Below the pieces are notes generated by a model that saw only the letters and a program-made list of their open reading frames with translations, did no database searches and had not been told where the DNA came from. Of a DNA stretch of 64,000 nucleotides, positions 1,786 to 56,543 are shown one piece after another. Source of the stretch: a virus; IMG/VR virus record IMGVR_UViG_3300031963_011530, positions 32,058 through 96,057 of that record. One strand, given 5' to 3'. Each line of letters starts with the position of its first letter. The first letter of the stretch is position 1. Position numbers and translations under genes: made by a program.

Positions 1786-2633
1786 TAAATTTCCTTAGGA
1801 TACATCATAAGTCCACCTTCACAAACTTCTTTTGGACAAATAACCTTTTTCGTAATATCTTTTAAAGATAATGGCATAATTTCGTTAGTGCAAACATTTT
1901 TAACTACATTATTTAATTCTATTTGAAAAGATTCCGGTAAACATTTATAGCCTTTGAAATTATTTTTTTTATCGTATAATAATCTTAAATTTGTAGTATT
2001 TTCTCGAAAGCCATTATCATATAAAACATCCATATCAATCATAGATTCAGCAGTAGAAGCTTCTACGAAAAAATCTTCTTCTAAATTACTTGAATAATAT
2101 TTTGTGTCTCTTAAAAAATTTAATGTAAATTTTATATCCTCCAACTTACACTTATCAATAATTTTTAAAATGTAATTTTTATATTCAGGCATCATACTTA
2201 TATGAACCTCACAGTTTAGATTTTTACACTTATCTAAAAAATCTTCTTTGTGATATTCGGGGTGAAAGGATGCGTAATATGTAACTTTCGAAAAACTTTT
2301 TATATTTTTATAAAAATTTTCTGATCTAGTTAAGTTAGTAAAAAAATAAATTTTAGTTAAATTTTCAATTTCATTTAATCCACTTAATATATCTTCGATA
2401 TTGGGATGTAATGTTGGTTCCCCACCAGTCAAACAAATCTCAAAAGGTTTAGAAATAGTTTTTAATCTACTTATAATCAATTTATAATTATTTGAAATTT
2501 GAGTATTATCATTATAATCATAACTCAAATGTTCCTTTACATTACAGTAGGAACATTTTAAATTACACCAATTTAATATATGCCAGTTAATTCTAAGAAT
2601 TTTATCTTGACTGGTGCAAGAAACAATTTTCAT
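1785..2633 (-). CDS. radical SAM protein (third of four)
   Basis: 282 residues from the ATG at 2633, chosen because it follows the upstream stop by one base with AGGA just before it; a longer reading would overlap the neighbour. The cluster motif is C23, C27, C30 (CNLKCSYC) and the SAM motif is LTGGEPT. Later Cys residues (KCLPES, VCTNE, CPKEVCEGG) could ligate a further Fe-S cluster. The shape is similar to single-domain 7-carboxy-7-deazaguanine-synthase-like or peptide-modifying radical-SAM proteins; the actual substrate is not evident. Confidence 0.85.
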   Translation of the reverse strand: MKIVSCTSQDKILRINWHILNWCNLKCSYCNVKEHLSYDYNDNTQISNNYKLIISRLKTISKPFEICLTGGEPTLHPNIEDILSGLNEIENLTKIYFFTNLTRSENFYKNIKSFSKVTYYASFHPEYHKEDFLDKCKNLNCEVHISMMPEYKNYILKIIDKCKLEDIKFTLNFLRDTKYYSSNLEEDFFVEASTAESMIDMDVLYDNGFRENTTNLRLLYDKKNNFKGYKCLPESFQIELNNVVKNVCTNEIMPLSLKDITKKVICPKEVCEGGLMMYPKEI

Positions 2634-2634
2634 G

Positions 2635-3759
2635 TTAGTTCCTACACTCCACACCTTCATTTTCAACACCAACATTTTCGATATAATTTAAAACCAAATC
2701 TTGGAAAACTCTTTCGTCTTTACACTCATCTACCACTCGCATTGCTTGTTCATAATATATGTGGAACAATTCACAAATACTATCTAATGGTTTATTATCA
2801 TTCATAATTTGAGAATATGTACAACCGGCATTACACACCTGTTTCAAATCACACGGTTCACATTTATCATAATTTTTTGGATTAAAAATGTCTTGATAGT
2901 ACCTAAAATTATACTGTTCATCCATTTTCATAATTTTTTTGGATGCAAACCTAGCGCAAGGGTAGAATTCCCCAGAACTCATCAATACTCCACCATTAGT
3001 TCCAGCAAAACAACCAAAAGGTCTTTTACCTTTCACTAAACCATAGAGAATATCTAAAATAGCTAGTTTTAAAAATCCTACTGAACATGGTTTACCAGAT
3101 TTTATCTTTTCTATCCAAAAATCTGCAAGTCTTTCACATTCATATCTAAACTGTATTATATCATCTTCTGTCCAAACATCATCACGAACAATACTAAAAT
3201 CGGGATGATCTATACCCCAATCTAAGAGAAATTCAAAATTCTCTTTCATGTCTTTTGTATTTCCTGGCCATATCATGACCTTACATCCGTTTGTCAAATT
3301 CTTTATGATATCTTTCTTATATTCATACATCGAAAGTATACCATCAAACAATTCGCCTGTTTCTGGATTAGTATTTTCCAAAAGTGGAAGTAAAGGTCTA
3401 CTCTCATTAGAACTCATACCATCAAAAGACCAAGAAACGCCAACACCATTATTTCTCAAATAATTAGCTTTATCTTGATCAATCATCGTTAAATTTGTGA
3501 TGATATTAATACCTTTACATTTATCATCCGATCTTAAATAAGGAACAGCGTGAGTTATTAGGTCCCAATTTAATAAAGGTTCACCACCAAAAAAACTTAC
3601 ATGATAATCTTTATCACCGGACCTTTGCATTAATTTTGGCAGGTCTTTCATACCCTGATCAAAAACTTCTTTCGTCATCCAAGTTGGTCTGTTTGCCACA
3701 TAACAATACGGACAACCTAGATTACACTTTTCAGTAACACTTACTTCTAATGTAAACAT
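2635..3759 (-). CDS. radical SAM/SPASM protein (second of four)
   Basis: 374 residues. Radical-SAM motif at C12, C16, C19 (CNLGCPYC), GGE motif as FFGGEPLLNW, and a C-terminal SPASM-like region with FGCFAG, YPCARF and the run CEPCDLKQVCNAGC, the pattern that binds auxiliary [4Fe-4S] clusters in anaerobic sulfatase-maturase and peptide-maturase families. Such proteins modify side chains of a peptide or protein. Ten bases separate it from the upstream radical-SAM gene. The start at 3759 has AAGGATAAT upstream. Confidence 0.88.
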   Translation of the reverse strand: MFTLEVSVTEKCNLGCPYCYVANRPTWMTKEVFDQGMKDLPKLMQRSGDKDYHVSFFGGEPLLNWDLITHAVPYLRSDDKCKGINIITNLTMIDQDKANYLRNNGVGVSWSFDGMSSNESRPLLPLLENTNPETGELFDGILSMYEYKKDIIKNLTNGCKVMIWPGNTKDMKENFEFLLDWGIDHPDFSIVRDDVWTEDDIIQFRYECERLADFWIEKIKSGKPCSVGFLKLAILDILYGLVKGKRPFGCFAGTNGGVLMSSGEFYPCARFASKKIMKMDEQYNFRYYQDIFNPKNYDKCEPCDLKQVCNAGCTYSQIMNDNKPLDSICELFHIYYEQAMRVVDECKDERVFQDLVLNYIENVGVENEGVECRN

Positions 3760-3768
3760 TTATTATCC

Positions 3769-4875
3769 TTATACTGTACACTGTTCAGCCTGAATTTTAA
3801 TTACAGGCTTTTTATAACTCTTTAGTGCAGTTCTTAATGCGTGATGTACTATCTCGTTTGTCTTAAATACTTTACAGACTTGCCAATTTGCTGTATGATC
3901 ACTCCATTTTTCTAGATATGTTTCTTTTTCTGATTTTTCATAAGTTGCCGCATTACATTTCATACAGAATTGACTGTCACAGTTCATACAATCTAAAGGT
4001 TGATTCTTCAACGCATCCTTATACATTTGAGATTTTTCTTCAATCAACTGATCCAAATCTGCAACTTTAAAAATATTTCCTAATTTATGTGAATGCGATT
4101 CTTTGTACATGCATCCATGGCAAGGACTCAAATCGCCGTTTAAATCAACACTTACGTAATTTATACCTGCTGCACATAGAGCTCTAGATTGTTGGAACCA
4201 TCCAAACTTCTCAGGAGGTAATTTATTTTCGTAAATATGTTTAGCAATTTTCTTCAATCCATCCTTTAATACTTCCAATTTAGGCATAAATTCTTCTTCT
4301 GTCAATTGGCTGTATAAATCTGGTGTTGGAAAATAATTTTTATCCATTTCTATGACATCCAAAAAGGCTTCATAGATTAAGTGGAAATTTTCAGACGTTA
4401 GTACAGATTTCAGTGAAACATTCAATCCAGCTTCTTTAGCTGCAATATAGTTTGCTTTGACCATTGCTGACGATGGAGTACCAGATTTAGTCACTCTGGC
4501 GATGTCGTTTACAGGCTTTCCATCATATGAAACCTGCAACTTTAATCTACCGGGAATCTCATTGTGAATTCTAACCAAATCTTTTAAATATCTCTTTAAA
4601 TACGTTCCATTTGTATAAAAGAAAAAAGAAAAACCAGGATCATGTTTAAATTTTTCTATGACACCTTTACAAAAATCCCAATTAACAAATGGTTCACCAC
4701 CCCAGAAATAAACATCTTTTTTGGGATCAGAAATTTTAGCCATAAATTCTTCAACATTATCTAATGTCAAAGAAGTATTTTCTTCAAACTCGGTAGATAG
4801 TCCACATTCAAAACCTTCGGAACAATATGTGCAAGCTAAATTGCAGATACTTGTTACGTTTATATCTACTACCAT
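3769..4875 (-). CDS. radical SAM/SPASM protein (first of four)
   Basis: 368 residues. The cluster motif is C11, C15, C18 (CNLACTYC), followed by FWGGEPFVNW. The C-terminal half has a SPASM-like Cys set: CAAG, CHGCMY, and CMNCDSQFCMKC. This is the arrangement of sulfatase-maturase/RiPP-maturase enzymes with auxiliary clusters. It opens the radical-SAM group, 68 bases downstream of the UDP-sugar dehydrogenase gene; a good Shine-Dalgarno (AAAAGGAGAAAAA) precedes the ATG. It is not PqqE as far as I can read (no CPLQCPYC-type motif). Confidence 0.88.
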   Translation of the reverse strand: MVVDINVTSICNLACTYCSEGFECGLSTEFEENTSLTLDNVEEFMAKISDPKKDVYFWGGEPFVNWDFCKGVIEKFKHDPGFSFFFYTNGTYLKRYLKDLVRIHNEIPGRLKLQVSYDGKPVNDIARVTKSGTPSSAMVKANYIAAKEAGLNVSLKSVLTSENFHLIYEAFLDVIEMDKNYFPTPDLYSQLTEEEFMPKLEVLKDGLKKIAKHIYENKLPPEKFGWFQQSRALCAAGINYVSVDLNGDLSPCHGCMYKESHSHKLGNIFKVADLDQLIEEKSQMYKDALKNQPLDCMNCDSQFCMKCNAATYEKSEKETYLEKWSDHTANWQVCKVFKTNEIVHHALRTALKSYKKPVIKIQAEQCTV

Positions 4876-4943: not shown

Positions 4944-5678
4944 TTATTCATTTCTAAACTTTTGATTTAATTCCAAAACTTTTTTAAGTATTTCAACATC
5001 ATAATTTTTAACTAAACACTCTGTGTCTTTTGGTAAACAAGGCCCACCAAATCCTTTTTTACCATCAGGACCAGGTACTTTGAAATGATTGGATCCCATC
5101 CATGGATGTTTAGAGAGAACAGTTATAGCTTCATTATAATCGACACCCATTTTTTTAGCAACCTCATACATAGAGTTCATAAAAGTTACCTTAGTTGCAT
5201 AAAAGGAATTCATGGTGTATTTTATAAATGATGCTGTATTAATATCTGTTACAAAAATATTTTCAGTATCTACGGTAGAATGTTTTTTATAAAGTTCCAA
5301 AGCCTGTTGAGATTTTTTACCAGAAAGTATTAATAAGTGTGGATTTACAAAATCTTCTTTCGAGGTTGATCTTGATAGAAATTCTGGGTTATACACAATA
5401 TCATATTTTTCAAGATATTGCGGCAAAATTGTGGACTTTACTATAACTATTCCCTGATAGTTCATCTCGAAAATTTCATTCAATACTGAAGTAACCAATG
5501 AATAATTAGTATCGTCTGTTGGTGTGGGGACACAAACGAATATTGCCTCTGGATTTAATAAACAGAGGCCTTTGACCGTTACGTGATTATATTTCGGATC
5601 ACAAACGAAAACTTGGGTTTTGGAAAAGCCGTATTCAACGGCTTGTCCAACCATTCCATAACCAATAATTCCAATCAT
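4944..5678 (-). CDS. short UDP-glucose/GDP-mannose 6-dehydrogenase family protein
   Basis: 244 residues, against about 400 or more for cellular enzymes. It keeps the N-terminal Rossmann motif (GYGMVG), the Lys/Asn dimer-helix region and the catalytic Cys in GFGGPCLPKD, so it can form the thioester intermediate, but the C-terminal UDP-binding domain is missing. It would oxidise the C6 hydroxyl of a nucleotide sugar to a uronate, or have an altered role. It lies between the tail-fibre gene and the radical-SAM cluster, which suggests a late function in surface-sugar metabolism or virion decoration. Confidence 0.82.
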   Translation of the reverse strand: MIGIIGYGMVGQAVEYGFSKTQVFVCDPKYNHVTVKGLCLLNPEAIFVCVPTPTDDTNYSLVTSVLNEIFEMNYQGIVIVKSTILPQYLEKYDIVYNPEFLSRSTSKEDFVNPHLLILSGKKSQQALELYKKHSTVDTENIFVTDINTASFIKYTMNSFYATKVTFMNSMYEVAKKMGVDYNEAITVLSKHPWMGSNHFKVPGPDGKKGFGGPCLPKDTECLVKNYDVEILKKVLELNQKFRNE

Positions 5679-5681
5679 AAT

Positions 5682-8600
5682 TTACATAATAACTACTTCT
5701 ATTAAACCTTCTTCTTCAGTTTCTTTATTTTCTAAAGCAATAATTCTAAATGGTAAAATTACATTTTCTTTTATAGAAATACCTACACCAGACTTTTCAG
5801 ATACAGTAATTAAATCACCCTTTTCACAAGTACCAATTATTCTAACAGGTAATCGACCTTTAAGTCCAACTATTAAACCATTTTTCAAGTCATTATTCAT
5901 TACGTATGCTGGTTTCTCCGATACGATTCCGATGATAGCGTGTTTTTTGGTGTCTTTTGCTGCAGTAACTTCTTTTTTGCCACCAACCATCATTATGGTA
6001 CCTGTAGGATATTTTTTATCGGACAAATATTTTTCAGCCAAGTCAGCGTAAAGGGCTCGCACTGCGACACCTTGAAACTGAAGTGCCCAAACTTCATTAG
6101 AAACAGCAACATCACCAGTAACTTTTAAAGCAGCTAAATTACTTGGGTCAGTTCTAGACGTTGTTGTTCCACCACTTCTAAAAAATACGTTCGAATAGAA
6201 ATTTGCAAAATCATCACATCTTATAGTGTTTGTGTGAACAGTTCCACCATCAATAACATTTGTAGCATTTGTAGCACTAGTTGCCGAACTAGCAGTAGTT
6301 GCAGTACATGCTGATGATGCTGTTCCATTGATGTTTATACTATAAGTACCGGTTAGTCTACCACTCGGCACAGTACCAGAAGTTAAATTGGTAGCATTTA
6401 AATTATTTAAATCAGCAGCAGGAACATCCGCCCAAGTAAACTCGGTTCCTGTCCACTTTAAGAAACGATTAGCAACAGCAGGAGCATCAATGAATTGTGT
6501 TGCACTAGTGTTTGTTTGATATGGAATTTTATTAGTTGCACCACCAGTAATATTATTTGCTTTATTGGCAAATTCTTCCAAATTATGTAAACCATTTACA
6601 CCATCTTCAAATTGCCACTTATCTAATGTTTCATTCCATTGGAATGTAGCAGGAGAGGCATTAGTTCCTCGATAAACTTGTATAGCAGCATTTTCACCTG
6701 GAGATGTATTTGGATTTAAATCCGAATTAAATACAAAATTGGAACCAAAATATCTAGCACTATCTCCGTCAAATTGAAGATTTGCAGTATTTAATCTACG
6801 GGTTATAGTAAGATCACCAGTAATCGTCTGTGTAGGAGCAACTTTCTGCACAGCATTATTAGCTGCTGCAAATGCAGAGTTAGCATATGCAGATCCAGAA
6901 GTAGCTTTATCTAAAGCTACAGCGTCTGAAGAATTATTAGCTTTAGCGAAAGCTCCATTAGCATATAATGATGCAGAACTTGAAGTATGTACAGCTGTAG
7001 CCGTAGAAATAGCAACGTCATTTAAATCAGTAGCAACTGTATTGGCTTTAGAGAAAGCCGCATTGGCATAAAGTGACGCGGAGTTTGCAACATGTGTTGG
7101 TGTATTTGCCCTTAAGAACGCACCATTTGCATAAAGTGCTGCAGAATTTGCTACATGCGATGGTGTGTTGGCTTGAATGAATGATGAATTTGCATGGGTG
7201 AAAGCTGAATTCGCATATGATGATCCACTATTAGCTGTATGATAAGCCGAATTGGCATAACTTCCAGCTATAACACCTCCCGCGGTAAATGCTAAATTTG
7301 CTTGAGCATAAGCTGAGTTAGCATAACTACCTGTTGTATTCTGTGCGGCAAATGCTGAGTTAGCGTACATACCCGAAGTCTGTGCAACAAAATGGGCTGT
7401 ATTCACAGCTAAAGAAGTTGCAACATTTGAAGTACTTGTGCTGTTTATTGATGAACTTAAGAAACTATCATCCAAAATTCCATAGAGGGAAGAATATGTA
7501 TTTCCTCTCGAAATAGTCCATCTATCATCAGCTTCATTCCATCTAATTAACGCATCATCACCTATAGGTCTTTCATTTCTAAATGTCGCTTCAGCGTTTG
7601 TTGGTGTTCTCTTATTTAAAATTATTTCACCAACTTCATACTCAATATCACCTAGAGCTGTCCAAGTTCCTTCAACAGTTAAATTACTAGTAATTAATGC
7701 AGTTCTTAAAGTAGTTTTACCATCAACAGTCAAAGATTCGTGCTGATCATTCGGTGCAAAAATTCTTGTTAAAGAACCAGTACTCATCCATAAGTTTGAT
7801 GTGACATTTAAAATAGATGTATTAATTGTAGAAGAAACGATATTATTTGTTACAATACTATTTCCTGTAATTCTATTTGTGGAAGTTATATTCCATGTCG
7901 TTAAAGTATTAATCGAAGCTAAATTGATACTAGCAACATTTATAGTAGAACTATTTGAAGTAAGTGTTACTACATTACCAACCAACACCGTAGATGTATT
8001 TACAGTGGAATTATTTAAAATAGAATTGTTTGAAACTAATGAAACTACATTACCAGTCAATATCGTAGAAGTATTTACGGTAGAAATGTTTATTGTAGAA
8101 TTGTTTGAAACTAGAGATACTACATTACCATCAATTATTGTTGCTACGTTAATTACAGCAACATTCGATTCTAAATTTACAATGTTCGCTGTTACATTGG
8201 CTATTAAATTTTTAGTTGTTAAAAAATTTGAAGTAGCGGCATTAGTTTTTAATATATGAGAATTTGTAGTAGTATTATCTAAAGTAATAATTCTAGCAAA
8301 AGACAAATCATCTAAAACATCAACTTTAGCATATAAAGCATATAGGTTTGCAGTGCTTACATTTGTTGAATATACTTGATCGGAATATAGCGTTTTAGTA
8401 AAAGAAGAACCTGTATTAATATAGGATACATTTCCAGATCCATTCAATCGTAATTTTCCTGTTGTTACAGTTAAATTATTTGCTATGGTTATGTCAGTAT
8501 TTACAATAACATTACTGGTATAAACATTTTGAACAATTTGCAGGTCTCTACCCACGTAAACACTATTCGCCACGTTTAGAGATTGTCCTGGACCCCTAAC

Positions 8601-9146: not shown

Positions 9147-12100
9147 TTATCCTGCTGGCAAAGCAATTATTCTTAAATCTTTAACCCTCGGTATTACCGA
9201 AGGATCACGCGAAGTCATAACAATCTTTATTGCAAATGTTTTGAATGTGTCGTAAATAACTCCAGCATCAGAAGTGTAAGTCAATTCGTCACTTGTTAGA
9301 GAAGGTCGGTATTCATATTCTCTAAATTCAGTTTCATCTATTGCGCCACTAACACTAGGATTCAAACATTCAAATTTACCATAAGGTCTATCGGAAAAAC
9401 TTATAATATCAGAACTAGATAAAATTTTATAGAAAACATGAATTTCTGTTCCAACAGGTTTATTGGCAGATAAGAATACCCTCAAATCACCAGCATCAAA
9501 TCCGTCTGTCAAAATAATAGGTTTAGTAATATATCTCGCCAAACATGGTCCACCAGAACTATCAAATTCACTATTTAATACAATAGAGGCATTAGCTGTT
9601 ACAGTTGAACTGTTTGATGTATGTGGATATGAAATATAAAAGTCATCAACATATCCTATACCAGATGAAGCGACATTCATTCGAACCACATTTCCATCTG
9701 TACTATTATTTACAACTATTTCAACATTTGCGCCTTCTCCTGTGGAAGAAATAACAGTAAGCACATTAGCATTTGAGTACTTTGCACCAGCTACAATAAT
9801 ATTAAAATCTTCAGGATTAATTTCACCATTATCAATAAAGTTTTCCCAAGTATTTACATATAAACTCTCTAAAGAAACTAAAGGAGTCACAGCATCGTTT
9901 GAAGTTGAAATTTCTAATCTTACTGTAAAATCATTTTTATCTAGTAACTCTTTTCTTCTATTACCTATAGAATAGAAGGTGTCATCTCCCATACTATAAA
10001 TTGTAGACGGTGTTATATTTCTATAAATTGTTTCTTTCGATGAATTTACTGGTTTAGTAATAACTGAGTAAGAAATTGATATTGGAGAACTAGATTGTGT
10101 TGTAATAGACTTCTCCAACAATCTAAATCTATCAATATAAATTTTTGAATCTTGTTTCTCACTCTGTAATAAAAATGTTGCAGAACTTGTATTGAAAACA
10201 CAACGATTCAATTCAAACATTAAATCTTCATTTAGATATGGAACATATTCCATAGCATTTTGTGATTTATACAAAGTGCCAACATAAGGGTTAACAGAAA
10301 CAGTTTGATTAGTTAATGTTGTTTGTCCCTTTTCTGCTGTCCAAACAACATAATCTGGAGAATCAGTTAATATAACAACAGCATATAATCCTGGTTTTAA
10401 AAATACTGGTGAACTAAAAGTAAAAACATTTTTGGTAGCACTATCATTAATACTAGGTGTGTTTGAGACAATTATTTCACTAGGATATTTTTCAACTACA
10501 GATTCAGGATACCAATAATCAAAAGAAGGTGTACCATTTACTGTAGGTCTAATTTGCACTCTGACTGGAAGGTTTTCATCATCCTTAGCACTAAAGAATA
10601 AATTTACACTCTCCAAATACAATCCATGTGGGTAAGTTTGTTCATCCACAAAAAATGTTTGTGCTAATGGATCGACTCTCCAAGTGCTTGTTATTGTACT
10701 TGTAACTGTTGTCGATTGTAACAATGGTGAAGTAACAGTTCCTACAATTTGATTACTTATTCCAATATTGTATACGGTATCAACTAAAGAAGTTTTTGTT
10801 GTTGTTATACCTGATGATACAAAATTTTTATCGGCAAAAGAAATTGCATCTTTATCATAAGAGTTATTGAAAGACTCCGTTAATCTATAAACTCTTTCTC
10901 CACTTAAGAAAGTGGCTTGTGGTGGATAAAATATTCCACCAATTTGGCCAGCTTTATTTGAAACATTCGTTCCTATACTATAAGAAAATGTTTTTCCTAC
11001 TTCGGAGGAAGGTATTGTTCCTGATACTGTAGCTACTTTAGTAGTAGTATTATAAGCAGTAATTGTGTAAGTGGAACCAATTCCAGTTGCAGGATTTACA
11101 TCAGCGTCAGTAGTTTGAATTCTAACCAAACTTACTGTGTTGCCAGTAATGTCTACACTTGGAGCATCTGCAGCTAATGTAATTGTACTGGATGTTACCG
11201 ATTTTGTATTTCCACAACGATGATCTAATACTGAACTAATAATTTTAGTTTCTTTCGAATCTAGACCATATACATATTTTCCACTCAATGACAAACTACT
11301 TTCATTTACTATAGAAACATTAGCTGATCCCACTTCAGAAACGGCACAAACACCTAAATGGTATATTCCAGTATCTAAAGCATAATTATCTATATGAGTT
11401 GATAATTCAGCATTTGTATTGGCAATTAAAACCATTTCTCCAGATTTAAATGGAGTATTCTGAGTTAAAGTAACTTTTGATGGAACGATAGTGTAGTTAT
11501 CAACTAATGTGCCATCAAAATACGAATAAAATCTCGTTTTAGGTCTTAAAGAAGATCCTATAAAAACTATACCTCTAGGTTTTAAGAAAGGATTTATTGC
11601 TGTGTCTGTAATATAAGATCCTAAATCCTGTTTTGATGTTGACACACCAATCTGATCTGCACTTAATGTTGCTCCTGTTTTAACATAAACTTGATCAGTA
11701 GTGGTTTGTAAATTACCATTTGTATTTCTATTAATTTGTACTGTCTTATTTTCAACTGTGGTTTTTGTTTCAAACCAAGAAGAATCTGGAACTTTTGCAA
11801 AAGGACTATCTTTGTCACTTAGCCAAGTTGGATTCTGTTCAGCTACGTAATTTAATCTATCATCAACGAAATTAAAGGCATCTTCTAATCCTTGAACCGA
11901 GTTTAAAGTAACTTTAGCTGTAACACTAGTATCATGGTCACTCGTAAACTCTGGGAAAAGTTTTAACGTTCCATTAAAATTACCATAAAGAGCACTAGCA
12001 ATAGGAATAGTTTTAGTTGCATATGGTTGATCGGCAAATTTTGTGGAAGTATAATTCATAATCAAAGATTTTTGAGTATTTGTACCCACAACCTTATAAC

Positions 12101-15100
12101 TACCAGAAGAAGTACTTTCCGACCATAGGAGTTTAGTCGTACTCATTAAAGAAGCTGGCTTTAATTCTCCATCTTCTACTTTATTTCTATTATCAAAACC
12201 TACATCACCATAATTAGCTTGAACGCTAGTTGAAGTAAAATTGTCAACTAAAATTCCATATTTTGATCTTTCGAGTCCATTAGCATCTAATATTTTAGAA
12301 TCATTAGCATTTTTTTCTAAAGAATTTAAAGAGACATAATATTCCAATCCTTTAATTCTATTTTCAAACGCACCAATGTCCCTCATGGTAAATCTACGAT
12401 TATTTTGGAAATCTACACGAACATCTTTTACATTTTCTGTATACGGGGGTATATACAGGGTGTAAAGTAACATATCAGTTATATCATGTGGAGGAATCAA
12501 AGGTTTAACAGCAGATTGTCCCTCAATAATAGCCATCTCTTTTGATGGTTTTACAACTACTTTATCAACCCTACTTAAATAATTTTCAAAAGAAACTTCT
12601 GCAATTTCATCAGGATCCGGACAAACCGCTCCAGACAAAGTATTTTGAGCAATACCTCTAGTTGGTCTAAAATCAAAAGAAGCTCTTCCAGATAAAATTT
12701 TTCCAGTAGATTTATCGACAAACTTACTTATAGTTGCATATGTAATATCCGAAGTTTCGTTCAAATAAGAATCTACAGTAAATAATCCATCATTTTGAGG
12801 AGATGGTGCTGATCCATGACTCAAATAATTATACATAACATAAATTGAACTGCCAACAGGAGAACTAAATCCTCTTTTTAATTTGATTGTTGCGTGATCA
12901 TAATGAGTTTTTCTTTGTCCGTTATCAAATTCATATCTATTAGTTACGTCATAAAGTGGATCAGTCAACATTGCTGTTGTAATGTTACCAGTAATTGTTC
13001 TCGAATCTATAATTTTTACAATTTCTAATACGTCAGGTACTTGTAAACTAACAGGAACTCCTGGAGTTTTTAATTTCTTAACTGTACCGGCATCTCCCGC
13101 TCCCGTTTCATTATCAAAATAAGTTACACCCAACTCTGGAAAAACATATCCTCCAGAAAAAGCAGTAGTTGTTCCAGTATTAAGTGAAGTTAAACCCGTT
13201 GTAGTATCAATCATATAAGCTACTTTTTCATGTTTACTTACAGATAATGGGTATAAAACTTTTGATCGTATAGCTCCAGTTGATCCATTTTCCGCATTAT
13301 TCACTTTAGTTGTTACTATAAAATCTGCTCTAATACCACCAAAAAGTCCTGTGTTTGTAGGATCAAAATTGACTCTAATTTCAGTGCTACTTATAGCTGA
13401 TACGGTATATTCATTATTAGCTAAACTTAAAACAGTATTTGGTGCTATACTTGGAATTCCTCCAGAAGTATCAGGTCGAATAAAACAAATTATATTATCT
13501 AAAATAACGCTGTCAGATAAAGTTCCTGGAGTACCAGCAAATGCAAAGGTGTCAGTGCCCTCCGGTGCTAAAGTAATAATTCCTGAACCACTTGATGTCT
13601 TATCGCTATAGACTTTTCTTGCAAAAAAATCAAAATTTGTTATTGTATCTTCCTTAATAGCGTCAAAAGGAACATCAAAAATTAATCCTTGTCTGTTAGG
13701 TTCAGTAATAAAAGCATACTTATTATCATCGTTAGTTTTAGAATCATCTGTTATATCAGCACCAAAAATTTTTGAACCACTTCTTTTTATTAATGATTCT
13801 GCAAATTTAAAATCCGAATCAATTGAAAATGCGTTTGAAGAAGGAACAAAAGGTAAAGCTGAAGATAACGTAATTGTTTTTGACGATCCACTCGATTCTT
13901 TAATTCTAACTGGTGCTAAATTTAATCCTGCTCCATCTTTAATACTAAAAAACATTCCCAAATAACTGTTTGCTGGAAGTTGTGCAAAAGATGAAGGTAA
14001 GACTATAACGGTATTAGTAGATCCAGAAGAAGCTACACTTCCTGTTATTGAAGAAGTATTTGCATCAAAAAGATTAACTGTAAACTGATGGGTTGTGCCT
14101 AGATCGGGATTAGAAGATTTGTTATATTTTATCATATTGGCACGAACTGTACCAATTTTTGAAGAATTATATTCTGTCGTAGAAGCAACACTAACACTGG
14201 CATGATTTGCACAATGTATATCCAAAAGTTCAAAGTTGGATATAACTAAGGTTCCATATACGTTTGCTACATGGACATAACTCGAATAATTTGTGGGTAA
14301 ATCATAGTCATTAATACTAGCTGTGGCTCTTCCTCTAGACACTTGTAATTTTGTTGGAGCTATTGTTTGTACCTCATAACCGCCGACATATGCTTTACCT
14401 GGATCCAATGATGCTGTAAAATAATTAGGATCAACGTAATTATTATTTGATGTATCTACGTATTCTTCTTCTAGAGATATTACAAAAGGATCAACAGTAT
14501 AATTACCAGATTCGTCAAATGTTCTTCTTGCTAAAGTCTTATCAATTTCATTGTAAATAGGATAATCAATTTCTTTTGTTTTTACCCCATCAACAATTCG
14601 GATAACTTCGAAAAAAGAAGATTCATCAGCAGAATCTAATGTTCTCTTACTCAATATGGTATTAATTTTAAACCTTGTTGCACCAGGTGCTTGATAATTG
14701 AACGAACCTTGTGCTGGGTCTAATAAAGAAACATCATCAATTTCATCAATAACCAATTCATCAAATTCAATACCTATTCTATAAGAAGGTTGTTTGTTAA
14801 TTGTTTCTGTGTTTAAACCTAATCTATAATATGTTTCTAATACTAAAAATTGAGGACTAACTTTTACAAATTGTCCTTTAAAGTAATAAACACCTTCCTG
14901 TATACTAGCTACATAAGAACGTCCTGTAGCATTTGCATCTTCCAATTCAGCAAAAATATTTTGTCCATAGACTTTTAATTCATCGCCTTCTGCAAAAAAA
15001 TCTCCACTTAAATATTTTACAATTAAAATAGGAAAAATTGTTGAATTATCTATAGCTATAACTTTGGCTCTAATTACTTTAGATGAATTATAAGAAACAA

Positions 15101-15397: not shown

Positions 15398-16738
15398 TTA
15401 GAAACTTAAAATAAATCTAATTCTATCTGTTTGGTCTGGATCTCTAGTTACAGGAACTTTATTTGAAACAAATAATATTTTTCCTGAATATAATTCTAAA
15501 GATGGGTTTGTTACATTAATTCCTATTCGTATTGAACCACTACTCAATCCTTTTACTGGTTGATTGGGTGTAAAAGTTCCTTTTAAATTATTAAGGTACA
15601 TAACATTAGTACCCTCATCAAATGAAATGACTTCAGCACTAAATGTGGAATTTTCTAAAGTGTCACCTTGTATAATAACTTCATCGTTATTATAATCTCC
15701 AACACCAGGCGACACTAAAACTTTACTATAAAGTGTATATGTATCAGCTGAAGCCAATGTCTCAGTATTATTAATATAAGGATTGTATACTAAGGAAACT
15801 TCTCTAAATTCATTTTCTGATGGAAAAATTCCACCAACACTACCATCAAAATCGACATTAAACATTACAGTATTTGCATAAAGTTCTTCAACCGGATCAT
15901 AACCATGTCCATTTTGCGGAGATAAAACTACATTAGCTGAAGCACCAGTTCCTATGCCACCCGCAACATCAGTAAATATTAAGTTAGCTGTGGTATAATC
16001 TTTTCCTCTATTTTGAATAACGATATTTACTACATTTCCACCAACAACATTTGCTTTTAAAACGGCATCGGTTCCATCACCAACAATAGTAATTATACTT
16101 TGTGTTGGACCATCAACATAATTGTTTCCAGCATTTCCTATTCTAACGATATCAATACTTCTATTAATTGCAGTTGCTCTAACAAATCTATTATAAGCAA
16201 CCGGCATCCAATCTTGATTTAAAAATTTTTGTTTTTGATCAGAACTTATAGTGTACAAATACTTCCATTTATATCCGTCAGAAGTTATAAAAAATGGTTC
16301 TTCTAAAGAAGTCGCAGATAAAAATAATTCAGGTTCATCCGTAGATGCAATACTATTATTATTATCTAAACATTTGAAAACTTGATTTTTAGAATTTAAA
16401 ACATAAAATGGTGTTCCAATAGGACAAACTGTACAACCATATCTAGAATACACCGTTCCGGATTGCCAATTATACCTCGGAACCACGAAAGAAACATTGT
16501 CTAATTGAATTACCTTCGCTACAATACCCCTATTGTAATATTCAATCAAATCTCTGGTGGATTGTCCGGGAGAAACAGGAGGAGTGTCACCTTGATTCCA
16601 AGGCGTTTGTTTGCCAATAGTCGCAAAAAGATAAGACCTTCGATTTAAGGGCAAGTACGTATTCGCACCAACATCCAATAAATTTATGAATTGTTGTGCG
16701 AGTAAAGTAGAAAAGGTGTTCGTTATTATTGATGACAT
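15398..16738 (-). CDS. 8: baseplate wedge subunit gp8-like
   Basis: 446 residues. The N-terminal half holds the gp8 hallmarks: a wedge-type start (FATIGKQTPW), then a region equivalent to the T4-like VQFVVPRVDW motif, here VSFVVPRYNW, then a Cys-containing turn and a WKYLYTI strand (DGYKWKYLYTIS). Gp8 forms the wedge with gp10, gp7, gp6, gp53 and gp25. Two GxxY/GxGY-type beta repeats lie between residues 200 and 265. It sits between the 931-residue protein and the DUF4815 protein. The start at 16738 has no clear Shine-Dalgarno; GATAAATA lies just upstream. Confidence 0.85.
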   Translation of the reverse strand: MSSIITNTFSTLLAQQFINLLDVGANTYLPLNRRSYLFATIGKQTPWNQGDTPPVSPGQSTRDLIEYYNRGIVAKVIQLDNVSFVVPRYNWQSGTVYSRYGCTVCPIGTPFYVLNSKNQVFKCLDNNNSIASTDEPELFLSATSLEEPFFITSDGYKWKYLYTISSDQKQKFLNQDWMPVAYNRFVRATAINRSIDIVRIGNAGNNYVDGPTQSIITIVGDGTDAVLKANVVGGNVVNIVIQNRGKDYTTANLIFTDVAGGIGTGASANVVLSPQNGHGYDPVEELYANTVMFNVDFDGSVGGIFPSENEFREVSLVYNPYINNTETLASADTYTLYSKVLVSPGVGDYNNDEVIIQGDTLENSTFSAEVISFDEGTNVMYLNNLKGTFTPNQPVKGLSSGSIRIGINVTNPSLELYSGKILFVSNKVPVTRDPDQTDRIRFILSF

Positions 16739-16746
16739 AGACTTAT

Positions 16747-19542
16747 TTATCTCACTTTTTGTACAATTATTGAAACAAAGTTGTTTGTTGTTATTGGATT
16801 AGTGTCAACTAAAATGGTGTTGGCATTCACAAAAGAGACATTTTTCGTTTCATCAAACACCACCCTAATTGTCAAATCGGTGCTAGAAATGCCAAATTCT
16901 GTTTGAGCAAAAATAGTATTTGCATTAAATATACTTTTTACGACTACTGTATTTCCAGAGGAAAGATAGAGCGTTTGGCCATCAACCACATCATGAATAA
17001 AATTAGTTCCGTTACCAGTTATTACATTTGAGCTGGATGAAATATTTGCTGTACCATTTATGGTTTTTTCTAAATTTTTTAAAATAATTAAATTGCCAAC
17101 AGAAACTTCAGATTGCACGTTTGGAGTTATTGACGTTGACACTATACTATTAGAAATATTACTTATATTAAATGTATTTGAATGATAATCTTGCGTTAAA
17201 TAGATTATTTGTACATTTTGATCAGAAGCATTTTTTGAATTCGTATCAATTTTAGTTACAAAAGTTTTTGTTCCTAATGGATGTACAGTTTCTTGCAATG
17301 TTTTCTTAAATTTATAATAATCATTTTCTGTATTAATTATATACGAGAAGTTATGATATTTTTTATCATCTTGAAATTTTTGATCCGAACTTGGTTGACC
17401 ATCGGTATTCAAGTAAATTCCAGGATATCGAATCAATCCATTTTCAAATTTGGCTGTTGCCTTAGCCTTACCATCGCCGTAGAACAACGAGGTCACAACA
17501 TTTCCTGTGGTTAAATTATCATCAGATTTTATAGATAGACTAGAATCAAAAGTTCCTGTATAATTATAAACTCTTAATGAATTATTTGATGTTGAATATT
17601 TGTCCACATAAGCAGACCAACTATAATTTGTATTCGATGCTCCTTGATAAACAAATGTATTCGCTACATAAATTTGACCTTCGGTAACATCAGTTAATGA
17701 TATGTCAGCATTTCTCAAAGAAATAATTGGAGCAGAAACATAATCATAACCGTAACTTATAACTCTTATACTTGATATTGCACCAATTCTAGTTGTAGAA
17801 ATTTCTTTATTTAATCCTTCACCTAATATTTCGGATACTTTTAATACTGCATTTTGTCCTCCACCGGGAGAATTAACTGTTACGGTTGGAAGGTCAATCA
17901 TAGTATAACTTTCACCACCTCTAATATAATCGGATGTTTCATTGAAAGTTATTGTTTTAATTCCATTATTTCCGGCATGTACAGAACTAACATTCGCATT
18001 AGCTCCATATCCTCTACCAGTACTACTAAAAACTAAAAAATCCCCAACAGAATAACCATTTCCACCATTGACTATTTGAATTCTACCTAAAGATCCAACT
18101 TCGGTTAATTTCCTTCTATTTAATTTATATACTGAAAGATTGTTTATATTATTTTCAAATTCATCAAAAAAAGTTATTGTGTTTGAACTTACGTTGGCTA
18201 CAATTTTTATTTCTTCATATCTATTTCTTAAAAATAATTTTACTGTTTCTCCAACTTCAAAAGAGTTGGTTAAATCTTGAGACTCATCTCTCAAAACTCT
18301 AGTGCCCTTTACGGCAGTAGTTGAATTTATAATTAATGTATCATCAAGTTCTTCCATATACAAACTATAAATGTCCAAATCGGGTTGAGTTTTATACCCT
18401 CCACCAGAAGATTCTACGGTAATAAAAGATATGGGAAAAACATTCAGTGTTTGTTTCGTAGTCAATTCATTTATCGTTTTATTGTCATTTACATTATCAA
18501 TTCCGTCAATAGTTGAAGAATAGAAAGATTCTATTGTTATATTACTTACGTTTATTGTTCTATAAACTTTTTCATCCAACAGTAATATTTTAGCCTTAGC
18601 TTCAGAACCTAATAATATATCTTTAAATCCTCCAGTAAAATCAAGAATTGAGGAATTTTGATATAATGCAGGATCCCTAAATCCAAAACCTCCATTAGTA
18701 ACAACAACATCATCAACTGAACCCTGTAATACATTTCCAACTGTAGCTATAGCACCAATAGGATTACCAGAACTTGGATTCAATCCACCTATAATTGTAA
18801 CTGGATCTCCTTCATATCTTAATTCTGGATCATATCCATTGTAATACAATCCTCTATTTTTAGGATCAATTTTAATTTCAGATAAAGATCCAATTAATTT
18901 AGCAGTAACAAAATCTTCATTTCCATTTGTTCTTACTATAGTTGTGCTTACATTTTCTCCAGTCAAAAATAATTTATTAATATTGGAAATGTATAATTCT
19001 ACATATTCTATTCCTAACTGTCGGTCAACCGATTTTATAACTTTTTCAACGATAGCTGTTGCTTTTGAATTTGTTCCGGTAATTTTACATTTTTCAATAT
19101 CAAAAATATTGGTATCACCAGTCTCAACTCTTAACGATAAAGGTAATACCCATTTTCCGTCAGAAACTTTTAATATTTGTTCTTTTGGAAAATAAATTTC
19201 AATATCTTCATTATATAATATTCTAAATAAAAACTTTACTGATTCTGGTGTTCCTTTTGACCTATAAAATTCTCCTACATTTTTTATAAAAGTTCTTTTA
19301 TCTAAAAGAATTTCTTTTGGAAAATATGGTAAAACTTCTTTTGCTATTTCATTTAAATAGTAATCATCGACCAAATCTAAATCTTTAGACTGTTCTAAAG
19401 TTTTGACTTCGTATAATGCATTATTACTACTTTCTAACCATTTATAGTATTTTTCTAAAAAAATGACAAACTTGGGGTTATCAGACCTAATAAAATCAGG
19501 TAGTTGACTTGAAACTAAATTGGAAACAATTAATTCTGACAT
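16747..19542 (-). CDS. large baseplate/tail structural protein
   Basis: 931 residues. The N-terminus (LPDFIRSDNPKFVIFLEKYY, then RTFIKNVGEFYRSKG and IYFPKEQILKVSDGKW) is that of a large virion protein conserved in marine T4-like phages, placed between gp6 and gp8. The rest is beta-rich, with several turns of the type GGGY, GNGY and YGYDY followed by a strand, suggesting a chain of small beta domains. By position it could take the place of the T4 gp7 wedge protein, but I cannot show homology to gp7. No lysozyme or metal site is seen. Confidence 0.75.
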   Translation of the reverse strand: MSELIVSNLVSSQLPDFIRSDNPKFVIFLEKYYKWLESSNNALYEVKTLEQSKDLDLVDDYYLNEIAKEVLPYFPKEILLDKRTFIKNVGEFYRSKGTPESVKFLFRILYNEDIEIYFPKEQILKVSDGKWVLPLSLRVETGDTNIFDIEKCKITGTNSKATAIVEKVIKSVDRQLGIEYVELYISNINKLFLTGENVSTTIVRTNGNEDFVTAKLIGSLSEIKIDPKNRGLYYNGYDPELRYEGDPVTIIGGLNPSSGNPIGAIATVGNVLQGSVDDVVVTNGGFGFRDPALYQNSSILDFTGGFKDILLGSEAKAKILLLDEKVYRTINVSNITIESFYSSTIDGIDNVNDNKTINELTTKQTLNVFPISFITVESSGGGYKTQPDLDIYSLYMEELDDTLIINSTTAVKGTRVLRDESQDLTNSFEVGETVKLFLRNRYEEIKIVANVSSNTITFFDEFENNINNLSVYKLNRRKLTEVGSLGRIQIVNGGNGYSVGDFLVFSSTGRGYGANANVSSVHAGNNGIKTITFNETSDYIRGGESYTMIDLPTVTVNSPGGGQNAVLKVSEILGEGLNKEISTTRIGAISSIRVISYGYDYVSAPIISLRNADISLTDVTEGQIYVANTFVYQGASNTNYSWSAYVDKYSTSNNSLRVYNYTGTFDSSLSIKSDDNLTTGNVVTSLFYGDGKAKATAKFENGLIRYPGIYLNTDGQPSSDQKFQDDKKYHNFSYIINTENDYYKFKKTLQETVHPLGTKTFVTKIDTNSKNASDQNVQIIYLTQDYHSNTFNISNISNSIVSTSITPNVQSEVSVGNLIILKNLEKTINGTANISSSSNVITGNGTNFIHDVVDGQTLYLSSGNTVVVKSIFNANTIFAQTEFGISSTDLTIRVVFDETKNVSFVNANTILVDTNPITTNNFVSIIVQKVR

Positions 19543-27506: not shown

Positions 27507-28817
27507 TTAAAATCTTCTTTTGGTGGTAGAAACTTCCCACATCGCCACATCGTCCCTATCTCTTCCCGCAACTTCAACAAAAGAATCTTTTGTAAGAATT
27601 TCCGTTTCTTGGAAATTTAAAGATAATCTAATACCAACAGGCATACCAGTTTTTCCAATCTCAGGTTGTCCAAAATTGTCAGGAGATTCATATGCAGACC
27701 ATCCATTTGGTGCATAATCTGTATCTATAGATGTCAAAACACAAGTTGAAATTTGAGGAATATTAGGATTTATAGAACCGTTGTAGTAAAATTTTATATC
27801 AAATTCGGATGGTGGCACTAAGAAGAATCCACCTAAGGCTCCAATTCCTTCTTTTAAAACTTCTGGTGCTTGATGAAATCTAAGTCTTTGTAATATTTTT
27901 TGAACTTCAACCGCTTCTTTAGAACTTCTTGGATATAACATAAAATCAAATCTGAACTCTCTAAATGAAGGAGACGAATATATCATTTCTAGTTGAGGAT
28001 TTACAACTGCTCCAAATCCTGCGGCAAAAACTCCTGATCCTGCACCACCGAGAGTTTTTCGTAAAAAATTGTTTAAAATGAATGGTGTTAAGTTTTTAAC
28101 GGCACTTTCAATTTTTTTCTCTCCTGATCCTTTTATTTGACTATAACCGGCTGTTGCAGCTGCCAAGTAAGCTAGAGGTGAAGATCCAAATTCTATTGTA
28201 GAATATTGTTGATTATTTGTAAAATTTAAAGTATCTGGCATATAAAAAGCAATACTATCCGTGGTTCTTTTTATAGTTCTCAAACCTTTTCCAGAATTAG
28301 CTAAATTAAAAATTTCTTTCGCAGAATCAGACAATCCTTTACCAAACGAATTTAATCCACCAGCAGCACTCTCAAAACCTTCTTGGAACGTTTCATTCAT
28401 ATTTTCTATTTTTGCATTGGCTTTATCAGAAAGAAAAGAAGCTCCTTTTTTAATCATTTCTTTACTTATTTGTGTAGGTCCAGATTCATTGACATCTTCA
28501 ACTATTTGTGTAAGACCAGATACAGTTTGCGAAAAAGGATTGGGTGTTCCATTATACTTTTGATTTTGTATAATAGTAGGATTTCCATAAAAGTTAGGCA
28601 AGCCAACCTCGTCCTTTGTTCTATCAAATCTAGTTTTTTCTTGTTGATTAATATGGATTACCATATAGTGTCCTTTATCTAAAGAACCTATATCCAAAGG
28701 ATATCTTAGTACATTACTCATATATCTGCTATCACGCAAAATTTGTTTTGTTAAACCAAGGGTATCACCATCACTCGTATTATTGATTTTGATTTCGGTT
28801 AAGTTGAAAAATGCCAT
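27507..28817 (-). CDS. baseplate tail-tube cap/initiator (gp48/gp54-like)
   Basis: 436 residues from the ATG at 28817, chosen because AAGGAA precedes it; upstream in-frame codons run into the divergent gp4 gene. Diagnostic blocks are MPDTLNFTNNQQY, EMIYSSPSFREFRFDFMLYP and LQRLRFHQAPE, found in T4-like gp48 tail-tube caps. The protein has a Gly/Ala-rich middle. It polymerises on the hub and nucleates the tail tube. It is the first gene of the leftward operon; only 28 bases separate it from the rightward gp4 gene. Confidence 0.82.
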   Translation of the reverse strand: MAFFNLTEIKINNTSDGDTLGLTKQILRDSRYMSNVLRYPLDIGSLDKGHYMVIHINQQEKTRFDRTKDEVGLPNFYGNPTIIQNQKYNGTPNPFSQTVSGLTQIVEDVNESGPTQISKEMIKKGASFLSDKANAKIENMNETFQEGFESAAGGLNSFGKGLSDSAKEIFNLANSGKGLRTIKRTTDSIAFYMPDTLNFTNNQQYSTIEFGSSPLAYLAAATAGYSQIKGSGEKKIESAVKNLTPFILNNFLRKTLGGAGSGVFAAGFGAVVNPQLEMIYSSPSFREFRFDFMLYPRSSKEAVEVQKILQRLRFHQAPEVLKEGIGALGGFFLVPPSEFDIKFYYNGSINPNIPQISTCVLTSIDTDYAPNGWSAYESPDNFGQPEIGKTGMPVGIRLSLNFQETEILTKDSFVEVAGRDRDDVAMWEVSTTKRRF

Positions 28818-40399: not shown

Positions 40400-40672
40400 T
40401 CAGGCAGACTTTTTGCTCTGTGTCTTTTCTGCTGTGATGTTAGAAACGAACCCATTCAAAGACTGAGCTTTGTTTATGATATCGTTTTCTGTGGGATAGT
40501 TGGGATATGGTGGATGATCAGGTATTGGTTGTCCGTTTAGTTTAGCGGACTCTACCTTCATATGCCACTCATTTGATAGACGCTCTTTGTTAGAATGATA
40601 TTCTTCTAGCAAAAGTCCTTGCGCCATTTTTAAAAGTTCAAGACGAATCTCAAACGGTGTAAGATTACTCAT
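40400..40672 (-). CDS. conserved small T4-like phage protein
   Basis: 90 residues: helical start (PFEIRLELLKMAQGLLLEEY), then a Pro-rich patch (PDHPPYPNYPTENDI) and a helix ending in a basic tail. The pattern is common in T4-like cyanophage genomes as an unnamed protein. AGGAGAAGTAA precedes the ATG. Function unknown. Confidence 0.72.
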   Translation of the reverse strand: MSNLTPFEIRLELLKMAQGLLLEEYHSNKERLSNEWHMKVESAKLNGQPIPDHPPYPNYPTENDIINKAQSLNGFVSNITAEKTQSKKSA

Positions 40673-40794: not shown

Positions 40795-40866
40795 TTAACG
40801 ATTTGCGATATACATCGTGATTTCGAAACCAAAACGCATATCTTGTGCAGTAGGTTTAGTCCACAT
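40795..40866 (-). CDS. pqqA: PqqA, precursor peptide of pyrroloquinoline quinone
   Basis: 23 codons from ATG 40866 to TAA 40795. The peptide begins MWTKPTAQDMRFGFE and ends ITMYIANR. This is the full-length PqqA pattern (MW.KP...DLR.GFEVTMY...R). The two residues joined by PqqE and built into PQQ, Glu15 and Tyr19, are both present at the required E-x3-Y spacing. A strong Shine-Dalgarno (AAAAGGAGAG, seven bases from the ATG) shows it is a real gene. Neighbours are HPr and the tmRNA upstream. Other pqq genes (B-E) are not in the window, so host enzymes would have to process it. PQQ is the cofactor of methanol and glucose dehydrogenases in the periplasm. Confidence 0.93.
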   Translation of the reverse strand: MWTKPTAQDMRFGFEITMYIANR

Positions 40867-40977
40867 ATTTCTCTCCTTTTAATATAGTGACAGTATTAGC
40901 TGTCTGTTTATGTATTGAAAAACTCATAAAAAAGTTCTACTGATAATCATTAAAAATCTATGAATATGAATTTACTT
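40867..40977 (-). other. pqqA leader region
   Basis: The 111 bases between HPr and pqqA contain GACAG-ctaata-CTGTC, a small hairpin 14 bases before the pqqA Shine-Dalgarno, in an AT-rich stretch. No good -35/-10 pair is present, so pqqA is probably read through from the tmRNA/HPr promoter. Confidence 0.4.
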
Positions 40978-41283
40978 TCACATACCAAAGGTTATAGCGG
41001 GAAATTCAGCTTCTCCGAATCGATTCTCAATCAACTCAACTAAAGAATTCATACATTCTTCCTCATCTTCACCATTTATATTTAAAATTAAAACACTGTT
41101 CGAGTAAAGAAAACTACTTGCAGATAATAACATTAATTCAATTATTGATTTGCCATTTGCAGTCTTTTCTCCATGAGTTACGACTATCTCACTTTTATAG
41201 TTTAATGAAGTCTCAACAAATTTTAATGCCGCTCTAGCATGAAGTCCTAATTCATTTATAAGTTTAATTTCTTTAGTAATCAT
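40978..41283 (-). CDS. HPr-like phosphocarrier protein
   Basis: 101 residues from the ATG at 41283; a longer reading would run into the tmRNA. Key residues sit at textbook numbers: His15 (LGLHARAA, the residue phosphorylated by enzyme I), Arg17, and Ser46 (NGKSII, the regulatory serine region). The final strands match HPr (VLILNINGEDEEECMNSLVELI). It could accept phosphate from the host PTS or PTS-Ntr and act as a decoy or regulator of carbon and nitrogen control. Lying between the tmRNA and pqqA, it is probably co-transcribed with them. Phage HPr genes are rare. Confidence 0.9.
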   Translation of the reverse strand: MITKEIKLINELGLHARAALKFVETSLNYKSEIVVTHGEKTANGKSIIELMLLSASSFLYSNSVLILNINGEDEEECMNSLVELIENRFGEAEFPAITFGM

Positions 41284-41299
41284 TTTTTTTCTTCTTTTT

Positions 41300-41623
<324 letters not shown>

Positions 41624-41629
41624 ACTCAC

Positions 41630-41658
41630 ATTATTACATAATATAGATTATTTGTCAA
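41630..41658 (-). promoter_or_regulatory. strong sigma70 promoter of the tmRNA
   Basis: TTGACA (41653-41658), 17-base spacer, AATAAT (41630-41635), 11 of 12 consensus bases. The start would fall near 41623, leaving only about 30 bases before the conserved T-arm stem; no separate riboswitch-like leader fits in this space. Confidence 0.85.
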
Positions 41659-55072: not shown

Positions 55073-55591
55073 TTAATTAGCTAAAACGCTTGCAACACTT
55101 TTCATGACTGCGGCAATACGACCAATATCTCGCAATTGTTCGACCGTATAACCTTCTTTTTTCAAAGTCTCATAATGTGCTTTTACGCAAAAATGACATT
55201 TACCAACAATACTTGCGGCCAAACTGTAAGCCTCAAATCTTGCTTTGGTCGTGCCACCATGACTTGCGATAGCATTCATGCGTAATTGTGCTGGAAGTCC
55301 AGTAAGATTTGGATCATCAGCCATCTCAACATATGGATACCATACATTGTTTTGTGCCATAATTGCACCTGCCGTAAGTGCTGCGTCAGCTTCTTTACGG
55401 TCAGTTATTTGTAGATGAAGCCATGTCCAAAGTTTAGAGTTACCTGTAGCAAACGCAGCGGCTAATGCCACTGCTTCTGCTTCTTCAACTGGTAATGTGC
55501 TACGTTTAATTACTGCATCAATATTGAGTTTAGTATCCTTAGCATATTCAGGAATACTTACTTCTTTTAATGTATCTACCCACGATGTCAT
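55073..55591 (-). CDS. ahpD: AhpD-like alkylhydroperoxidase
   Basis: 172 residues. The C132-HF-C135 pair with His139 (KCHFCVKAHY) is the AhpD active site; the helical carboxymuconolactone-decarboxylase-like fold and length agree. AhpD reduces peroxiredoxin AhpC in some bacteria or acts itself as a peroxidase. It is in one operon with a peroxiredoxin, an arrangement that suggests the pair works together against peroxides. Confidence 0.9.
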   Translation of the reverse strand: MTSWVDTLKEVSIPEYAKDTKLNIDAVIKRSTLPVEEAEAVALAAAFATGNSKLWTWLHLQITDRKEADAALTAGAIMAQNNVWYPYVEMADDPNLTGLPAQLRMNAIASHGGTTKARFEAYSLAASIVGKCHFCVKAHYETLKKEGYTVEQLRDIGRIAAVMKSVASVLAN

Positions 55592-56006: not shown

Positions 56007-56543
56007 TTAAAGTGTTTCGCCACCAATTGTGCGGTTACATGCACAGAGTTCTCCAGTTTGAAGAGCATCAAGCACACGAAGTGTTTCATCTGGTGAACGA
56101 CCTACATTGAGGTTGTTAACCGTAACGTGTTGTATAACATTATCAGGGTCGATAATAAAAGTAGCACGAAGAGCTGCGCCCGCTGGTTCATAGAAAACTC
56201 CCAATTGTTCAATCAATGATACACCCCATTCACGCGAAGTATCAGCAAACTGAATGTGTTTGATTTTTTTCAAATCTTCATGTGAAGCCTGCCAACCAAG
56301 TTTACAGAATTCATTATCGGTAGAACCTGTCAATAGAACTGCATCACGGTCTGCAAAATCTTGGAACAACTTATCATATGCCACGATTTCTGTTGGACAT
56401 ACAAACGTGAAATCTTTTGGATAGTAAACAATTACTTTCCACTTACCTTCAAAAGACTTTTCGGTAATATCAAAAAATTTGTCACTACCAGGATTAATAC
56501 CAGTTACTACGAACGGTTCAATTACATCGCCTACTGTTTTCAT
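56007..56543 (-). CDS. 2-Cys peroxiredoxin (AhpC family)
   Basis: 178 residues. Peroxidatic Cys49 in FTFVCPTEIVA, the GWQASH and FIIDPDN blocks, and a C-terminal Cys pair (C167, C169 in ELCACNRT) for resolution. It reduces hydrogen peroxide and organic peroxides. The start (56543) has GGAGGAAATAA directly after a ten-T run of a hairpin terminator (56555-56592), so expression requires reading through that signal. In one operon with SGNH and AhpD genes. Confidence 0.92.
   Translation of the reverse strand: MKTVGDVIEPFVVTGINPGSDKFFDITEKSFEGKWKVIVYYPKDFTFVCPTEIVAYDKLFQDFADRDAVLLTGSTDNEFCKLGWQASHEDLKKIKHIQFADTSREWGVSLIEQLGVFYEPAGAALRATFIIDPDNVIQHVTVNNLNVGRSPDETLRVLDALQTGELCACNRTIGGETL

Follow-up and report, generated by a model that had tools for sequence, protein, structure and literature searches.

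A 23-codon pqqA gene carried by a T4-like phage without the rest of the PQQ pathway probably feeds host PQQ synthesis

The window, a stretch of 64,000 nucleotides, corresponds to bases 32058 to 96057 of the virus record IMGVR_UViG_3300031963_011530, which is 96,057 bases long. It carries genes for a gp59 helicase loader, a DsbA late regulator, and a T4 RNase H, and the listed DNA matches of the record are the ssDNA-binding genes of T4-like pelagiphages, cyanophages, and Caulobacter phages. Judged by these genes and matches, the phage is T4-like. The single PqqA of the whole 96-kb record, the peptide MWTKPTAQDMRFGFEITMYIANR, is encoded by 23 codons at positions 40795 to 40866. An earlier sequence-only reading had given these coordinates correctly without stating the strand, which is the minus strand; the ATG starts at 40866 and the stop codon, counted in the interval, lies at 40797 to 40795. 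Immediately 5′ of the ATG is AAAAGGAGAGAAAT (40867 to 40880, minus strand), on inspection the strong Shine-Dalgarno sequence that had been noted there. The proposed full-length match to PqqA was borne out by profile searches, in which the peptide scored about double the cut-off of each curated PqqA model: Pfam PF08042 aligned over all 19 model positions (39.4 bits; cut-off, 21.1; E value, 5.6e-10) and the equivalog-level NCBIfam model TIGR02107 over all 21 positions (39.5 bits; cut-off, 20). In PQQ synthesis, a Glu-x3-Tyr pair of PqqA is joined by PqqE to make the PQQ skeleton, and the window peptide has this pair as Glu15 and Tyr19, as had been read from the letters.

No ORF of 60 or more amino acids overlaps pqqA on either strand. 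A chance origin can be set aside because 1.1 Mb of shuffled viral DNA contained no ORF with the PqqA pattern and because locus L012, which has an unrelated genome background, encodes the identical peptide with 7 synonymous and 0 nonsynonymous changes relative to the window gene. The ORF is almost certainly a PqqA, as far as sequence can tell. Three further observations were not counted as evidence: promoter sites were no more numerous than in shuffles, the T4 late-promoter motif was under-represented, and the mRNA fold had a z score of -1.7. A PHROGs search with the window PqqA gave no match.

Directly upstream of pqqA, between it and a tmRNA gene, is a gene for an HPr-family phosphocarrier (40978 to 41283, minus strand; PF00381, 69.6 bits). 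The tmRNA (41268 to 41652, minus strand; Rfam RF01850, 143 bits) is of the permuted beta type, with the tag ANDETFALAA. Downstream of pqqA lies a 90-amino-acid ORF of unknown function (40400 to 40672, minus strand). At eight other viral loci, its homologues likewise come after pqqA, within 0.6 kb in seven and at 1.5 kb in one. The HPr gene has an identical copy in L014 and was not detected in L011, elsewhere 87 to 100% identical, and a recent insertion or loss therefore looks likely. Across viral loci, pqqA often sits inside or beside tRNA arrays or a tmRNA, and its neighbors vary from lineage to lineage. Since phages gather foreign genes at such places, pqqA might have been picked up there as a passenger that does nothing during infection. 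This explanation is unlikely in view of how the gene is conserved and distributed among viruses, as set out below.

The rest of the PQQ pathway is missing from the phages examined. None of 160 sampled viral copies of pqqA had pqqB, pqqC, pqqD, or pqqE beside it in the flanks available, which in a first sample reached up to 6 kb per side and in a second were either entire short contigs or pieces no longer than about 15 kb; some of these flanks end at contig ends, and a few contigs are common to both samples. The 96-kb window record likewise gave no significant match to PqqB, PqqC, or PqqD and has no PqqE, and thus no pqqABCDE operon. PqqE was also absent from 18 other pqqA-bearing viral records (19 to 356 kb). 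The highest viral score was 34 bits, where the cut-off is 381, and most of these other records had no PqqE-like radical SAM match whatsoever.

The window record does encode five radical SAM proteins (window positions 1785 to 4875 and L010 positions 5598 to 7251, all on the minus strand). Two of them, at 2635 to 4875, are SPASM-like and stand nearest to PapB-type peptide maturases, though even their highest family scores fall well short of all the cut-offs. As candidates for PqqE, all five were rejected, being far below any family cut-off. It is conceivable that PqqA is instead a substrate of such maturases and yields a product other than PQQ, given that two of the five are closest to enzymes that act on peptides. 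However, the PqqE score and the lack of PqqE-like proteins in most other pqqA-bearing records, given above, argue against it, and the nearest radical SAM gene of the window record is 36 kb from pqqA. This reading is highly improbable.

The PqqA type found in the window is widespread among viruses. A profile search of IMG/VR, built from seven phage peptides, returned at least 597 viral stretches that encode a relative with the seed [ED]MRFGFE, and nine cultured phages, described below, add to these. Of the IMG/VR stretches, 80 loci were kept, and all 80 contained intact PqqA ORFs of 23 to 25 amino acids. A Shine-Dalgarno sequence preceded 79 of the 80 genes, compared to 8% of all ATGs in the same DNA. 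Over 75 distinct sequences, pN/pS was 0.23, a value that is biased downward because the sample was chosen on part of the motif and thus on a conserved seed. Trp2, Pro5, Thr17, Tyr19, and Asn22, all outside the seed, were invariant in 69 distinct viral sequences, as was Glu15, and the codons at these fixed positions varied synonymously (four for Pro5, four for Thr17, and two for Tyr19; Trp has a single codon). These patterns indicate that viral pqqA is kept under purifying selection.

Strong amino acid constraint with free synonymous change, together with a near-universal Shine-Dalgarno sequence, is not what a functionless passenger would show. Moreover, pqqA recurs in unrelated phage types and is retained where the adjoining HPr gene differs. 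The same conservation bears on a further explanation, in which phage PqqA acts as a decoy for PqqD or PqqE, so that host PQQ synthesis, or some other process that employs the two proteins, is diverted or blocked. As a precursor peptide encoded alone, it could in principle bind and titrate PqqD. However, a decoy need not keep its full length or the two residues that are cross-linked, both of which are invariant in the 69 sequences, and the location of some viral pqqA genes next to a PQQ-requiring phage dehydrogenase argues for supply. A decoy role is accordingly very unlikely.

A second sample of 80 loci, obtained with a DNA pattern and unranked by similarity, gave a similar picture: all 80 were real PqqA ORFs, and 73 had a Shine-Dalgarno sequence. 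Nine of them were of an IRLGFE.TMYF-like type that is unlike betaproteobacterial PqqA; our guess is that these phages infect gammaproteobacteria. An alphaproteobacterial PqqA pattern had two viral matches, one a real PqqA (L200) and the other not.

Cultured phages also carry the gene. A tblastn search at an E value of 10 over 50,697 phage records found pqqA in nine Methylophilales phage isolates, namely, four Melnitz isolates, Venkman, MEP301, MEP401, MEP402, and P19250A. They span several unrelated phage types, and eight were isolated on OM43 and one on LD28. Each has a solo pqqA of 23 to 24 codons whose peptide is 65 to 77% identical to that of the window. The sole further genuine carrier at this sensitivity was a metagenome-derived spring-water podovirus, and phages of the many other PQQ makers gave no match in these records. 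As a measure of the sensitivity, an Acinetobacter operon peptide was picked up at 59% identity. That hit was to Acinetobacter phage MD-2021a (H11), which was rejected as a carrier, since its locus (L008) holds a full pqqABCDE operon amid host genes; H12 has the same name, was taken as the same, and was rejected with it. The sequence so labelled, CAKLQF020000010.1, is a bacterial contig in this region, with pqqABCDE, ppk, and fur. MEP431 to MEP434 and other Methylophilales phages listed at NCBI were not among the matches, being either outside the record set or without the gene.

In the isolate records examined, the pqqA stretch is either unannotated or lies under a "hypothetical protein" on the opposite strand. 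For example, P19250A has an unannotated pqqA at 28085 to 28153 of KX815270.1 (minus strand), and the Melnitz gene at 74888 to 74953 of MZ577095.1 (plus strand) lies beneath an opposite-strand hypothetical protein. Neither the Venkman paper nor those on MEP301 and MEP401/402 contain the word "PQQ", and in the Melnitz paper PQQ appears solely as a medium additive (PMC9004378). Gene callers pass over genes of 23 codons, which is probably why viral pqqA has been overlooked.

It has not been overlooked entirely. The sequence-only reading was unaware of any pqqA-based phage system, yet one was described in 2020 for phage populations of Lake Baikal methylotrophs (PMC7678222), and viral pqqA is also listed elsewhere (PMC13188868). 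In the Lake Baikal populations VP_266 and VP_139, pqqA was found in VP_266 with a viral methanol dehydrogenase (MDH), and support of methanol oxidation was proposed (PMC7678222). Both populations are T4-like, as is the window phage, whereas the window record has pqqA without an MDH. According to that paper, pqqA occurs in one population and P19250A lacks all the auxiliary metabolic genes described, but the unannotated pqqA is there (H10). Viral pqqA is thus a kind already described and far commoner than the paper implies. What goes beyond the published work found is its breadth, the rule that it occurs solo, the copies that had been missed in cultured phages, and the recurring linkage to viral MDH.

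No other evidence speaks as strongly as this linkage for viral PqqA serving a PQQ dehydrogenase. A viral scan with a Methylophilales MDH as the query gave nine contigs, which resemble the Lake Baikal phages (PMC7678222); the two full-length viral MDH proteins examined scored about 610 bits on TIGR03075 (cut-off, 480). Seven of the nine contigs have pqqA 0.2 to 6 kb from MDH, the gaps being 0.2 kb in L336 and L341, 0.3 kb in L339 and L340, 1.1 kb in L338, 3.6 kb in L335, and 6 kb in L333. The two without pqqA, L334 and L337, are both short and belong to one lineage. As L339 and L340 are also one lineage, the count becomes six of seven lineages. The combination of MDH and pqqA was found in these seven viral records and not in that of the window, where no match to PQQ alcohol dehydrogenase (TIGR03075) was present in the 96-kb, possibly incomplete, record. 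The link to methanol is strong for Methylophilales phages alone.

The window phage carries another pair of genes that recurs near viral pqqA, for an AhpD-like protein of the CMD family (55073 to 55591, minus strand; PF02627, 46.4 bits) and an AhpC-like peroxiredoxin (56007 to 56543, minus strand; PF00578, 72.7 bits). In the MDH-bearing L339 and L340, homologues of both (82% identical to the window's AhpC, 75% to its AhpD) directly precede pqqA and MDH, with the AhpC copy 0.7 kb upstream of pqqA. AhpD-like homologues (75 to 88%) occur near pqqA in L021, L034, and L037 as well as in L339 and L340. PqqC releases hydrogen peroxide, and for this reason a peroxide-clearing pair beside pqqA would make sense. 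Among AhpC-bearing viral loci, 8 of 80 had pqqA in the flank (up to 10 kb), and AhpC is common in such phages. Since the phages concerned are related, the proximity is suggestive, and the association is best regarded as a lead.

Each PQQ molecule is cut from one PqqA, which is consumed, while PqqB to PqqE turn over many times. This may be why only pqqA is carried: every PQQ uses up one PqqA, whereas the enzymes outlast the stop in host transcription. When a phage shuts off the host chromosome, the supply of PqqA would be the first to be lost, and pqqA alone would be the cheapest remedy. Taken with the absence of the rest of the pathway from the record, the best reading is the one first put forward, that added precursor feeds host PQQ synthesis, and the gene is probably a functional, stand-alone auxiliary metabolic gene. 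A host-derived metabolic gene is indeed what these phage genomes carry, as judged by the T4-like genes, the DNA matches, and the nine isolates. Phage PqqA would be translated after infection, presented by host PqqD, and cross-linked by host PqqE between Glu15 and Tyr19. A host protease, PqqB, and PqqC would then complete PQQ, which would be loaded into host periplasmic PQQ dehydrogenases and, in other phages, also into the phage-encoded MDH. Expression, cross-linking, extra PQQ, and, for the window phage, a host dehydrogenase that gains from it are all inferred steps.

The sequence-only reading had also called PqqA the limiting raw material of PQQ. That it is the consumed part stands; that it is limiting does not follow, because in Acetobacter extra pqqAB raised PQQ by only 29%, compared to eightfold with the whole pqqABCDE operon (PMC7936290). 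This result weighs against the supply reading; the amplification of pqqA alone in obligate methylotroph hosts counts in its favor. T4-like phages shut off host expression. A variant of the supply reading, not exclusive of it, is that the phage merely restores the PqqA lost at host shutdown and holds PQQ at its preinfection level. The latent periods of MEP401 and MEP402, 17 to 20 h (PMC10580990), are long enough for PqqA to run out, and replacement differs from a boost in degree only. We regard this variant as possible, at somewhat less than even chances.

The host of the window phage bears on which dehydrogenase would benefit. Its PqqA is of the DMRFGFEITMYIANR type, which is also that of Burkholderiales that have a pqq operon, Polaromonas, Rhodoferax, and Thauera among them. 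The closest host peptide, from Polaromonas/Rhodoferax, is 86% identical over W2 to R23; no exact match was found in host genomes, and a genus-level host search led to one genome only. In those Comamonadaceae and Rhodocyclaceae (Polaromonas, Rhodoferax, and Thauera), pqqA heads a complete pqqABCDE operon, whereas the phage pqqA stands alone. The Methylophilaceae resemble the phages in that their chromosomes have extra pqqA genes (3 to 12 copies) away from a single pqqBCDE set, with one exception (PMC4109929), but these orphan host genes are of the EMRFGFEVTMYVCNR type. By our count, ten Methylophilaceae genomes have 2 to 12 copies of pqqA, Methylophaga has 6, and Polaromonas, Rhodoferax, and Thauera have a single copy each. 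From its Burkholderiales operon-type PqqA, the phage would have a betaproteobacterial host, probably in the Burkholderiales.

The tmRNA was rejected as evidence of host genus. Matches to its type came from genomes of Thauera and other Burkholderiales, and ten Methylophilaceae genomes gave no permuted beta tmRNA match above the family cut-off. However, this permuted type is also present in MDH-bearing phages whose PqqA is of the Methylophilaceae type, and the Melnitz tmRNA is alphaproteobacterial-like (PMC9004378). Permuted betaproteobacterial tmRNA was also seen in L011, L013, L014, L334, and L339.

The role in methanol oxidation suggested by the sequence-only reading is thus supported for other viruses, in which pqqA lies beside a phage MDH. 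It may not apply to the window phage, because the record has no PQQ alcohol dehydrogenase and because the likely host type, as indicated by the DMRFGFEITMYIANR-type PqqA, keeps a single operon pqqA. A broader picture, to which we give about even odds, is that solo pqqA is widespread, was acquired many times, and sustains periplasmic quinoprotein oxidation in betaproteobacteria and probably some gammaproteobacteria. Some phages would have a cassette drawn from MDH, pqqA, a SoxYZ-like carrier, formate dehydrogenase alpha, and AhpC/AhpD, and the window phage, with pqqA and AhpC/AhpD and no dehydrogenase in the record, would be the minimal form, whose host need not be a methylotroph. With 72 bases supplying the sole consumed part of the pathway, no smaller gene could act on an entire class of periplasmic dehydrogenases. 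If pqqA works as proposed, phages of methanol oxidizers routinely keep methanol oxidation going, with consequences for C1 turnover in lakes and coastal seas. Since eight OM43 isolates and one LD28 isolate come from cultured hosts, the question is directly testable.

Several further features were seen around viral MDH. A conserved element just upstream of it, GTGGTCCGCGGCC..CGCTCGAGAGCG..GACAACCGGCA, has a short hairpin and a variable middle (L339, 4975 to 5048; L338, 9518 to 9592; L341, 4247 to 4322; L335, 9940 to 10000). It had no Rfam match and may act as a leader or riboswitch for the dehydrogenase. In L333, formate dehydrogenase alpha (885 bits; cut-off, 666) comes after MDH, and a SoxYZ-like carrier of the kind associated with quinoprotein dehydrogenases (197.5 bits; cut-off, 140) comes after pqqA, so that positions 10001 to 14795 and 17899 to 18801 make up a candidate phage methanol-oxidation cassette. 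Both long MDH loci, L333 and L335, have a gene for the CsgG curli pore, which has also been reported for Melnitz (PMC9004378). Finally, L333 has a glutamine riboswitch at 15708 to 15758 (RF01739, 61.9 bits), like one reported for Melnitz.
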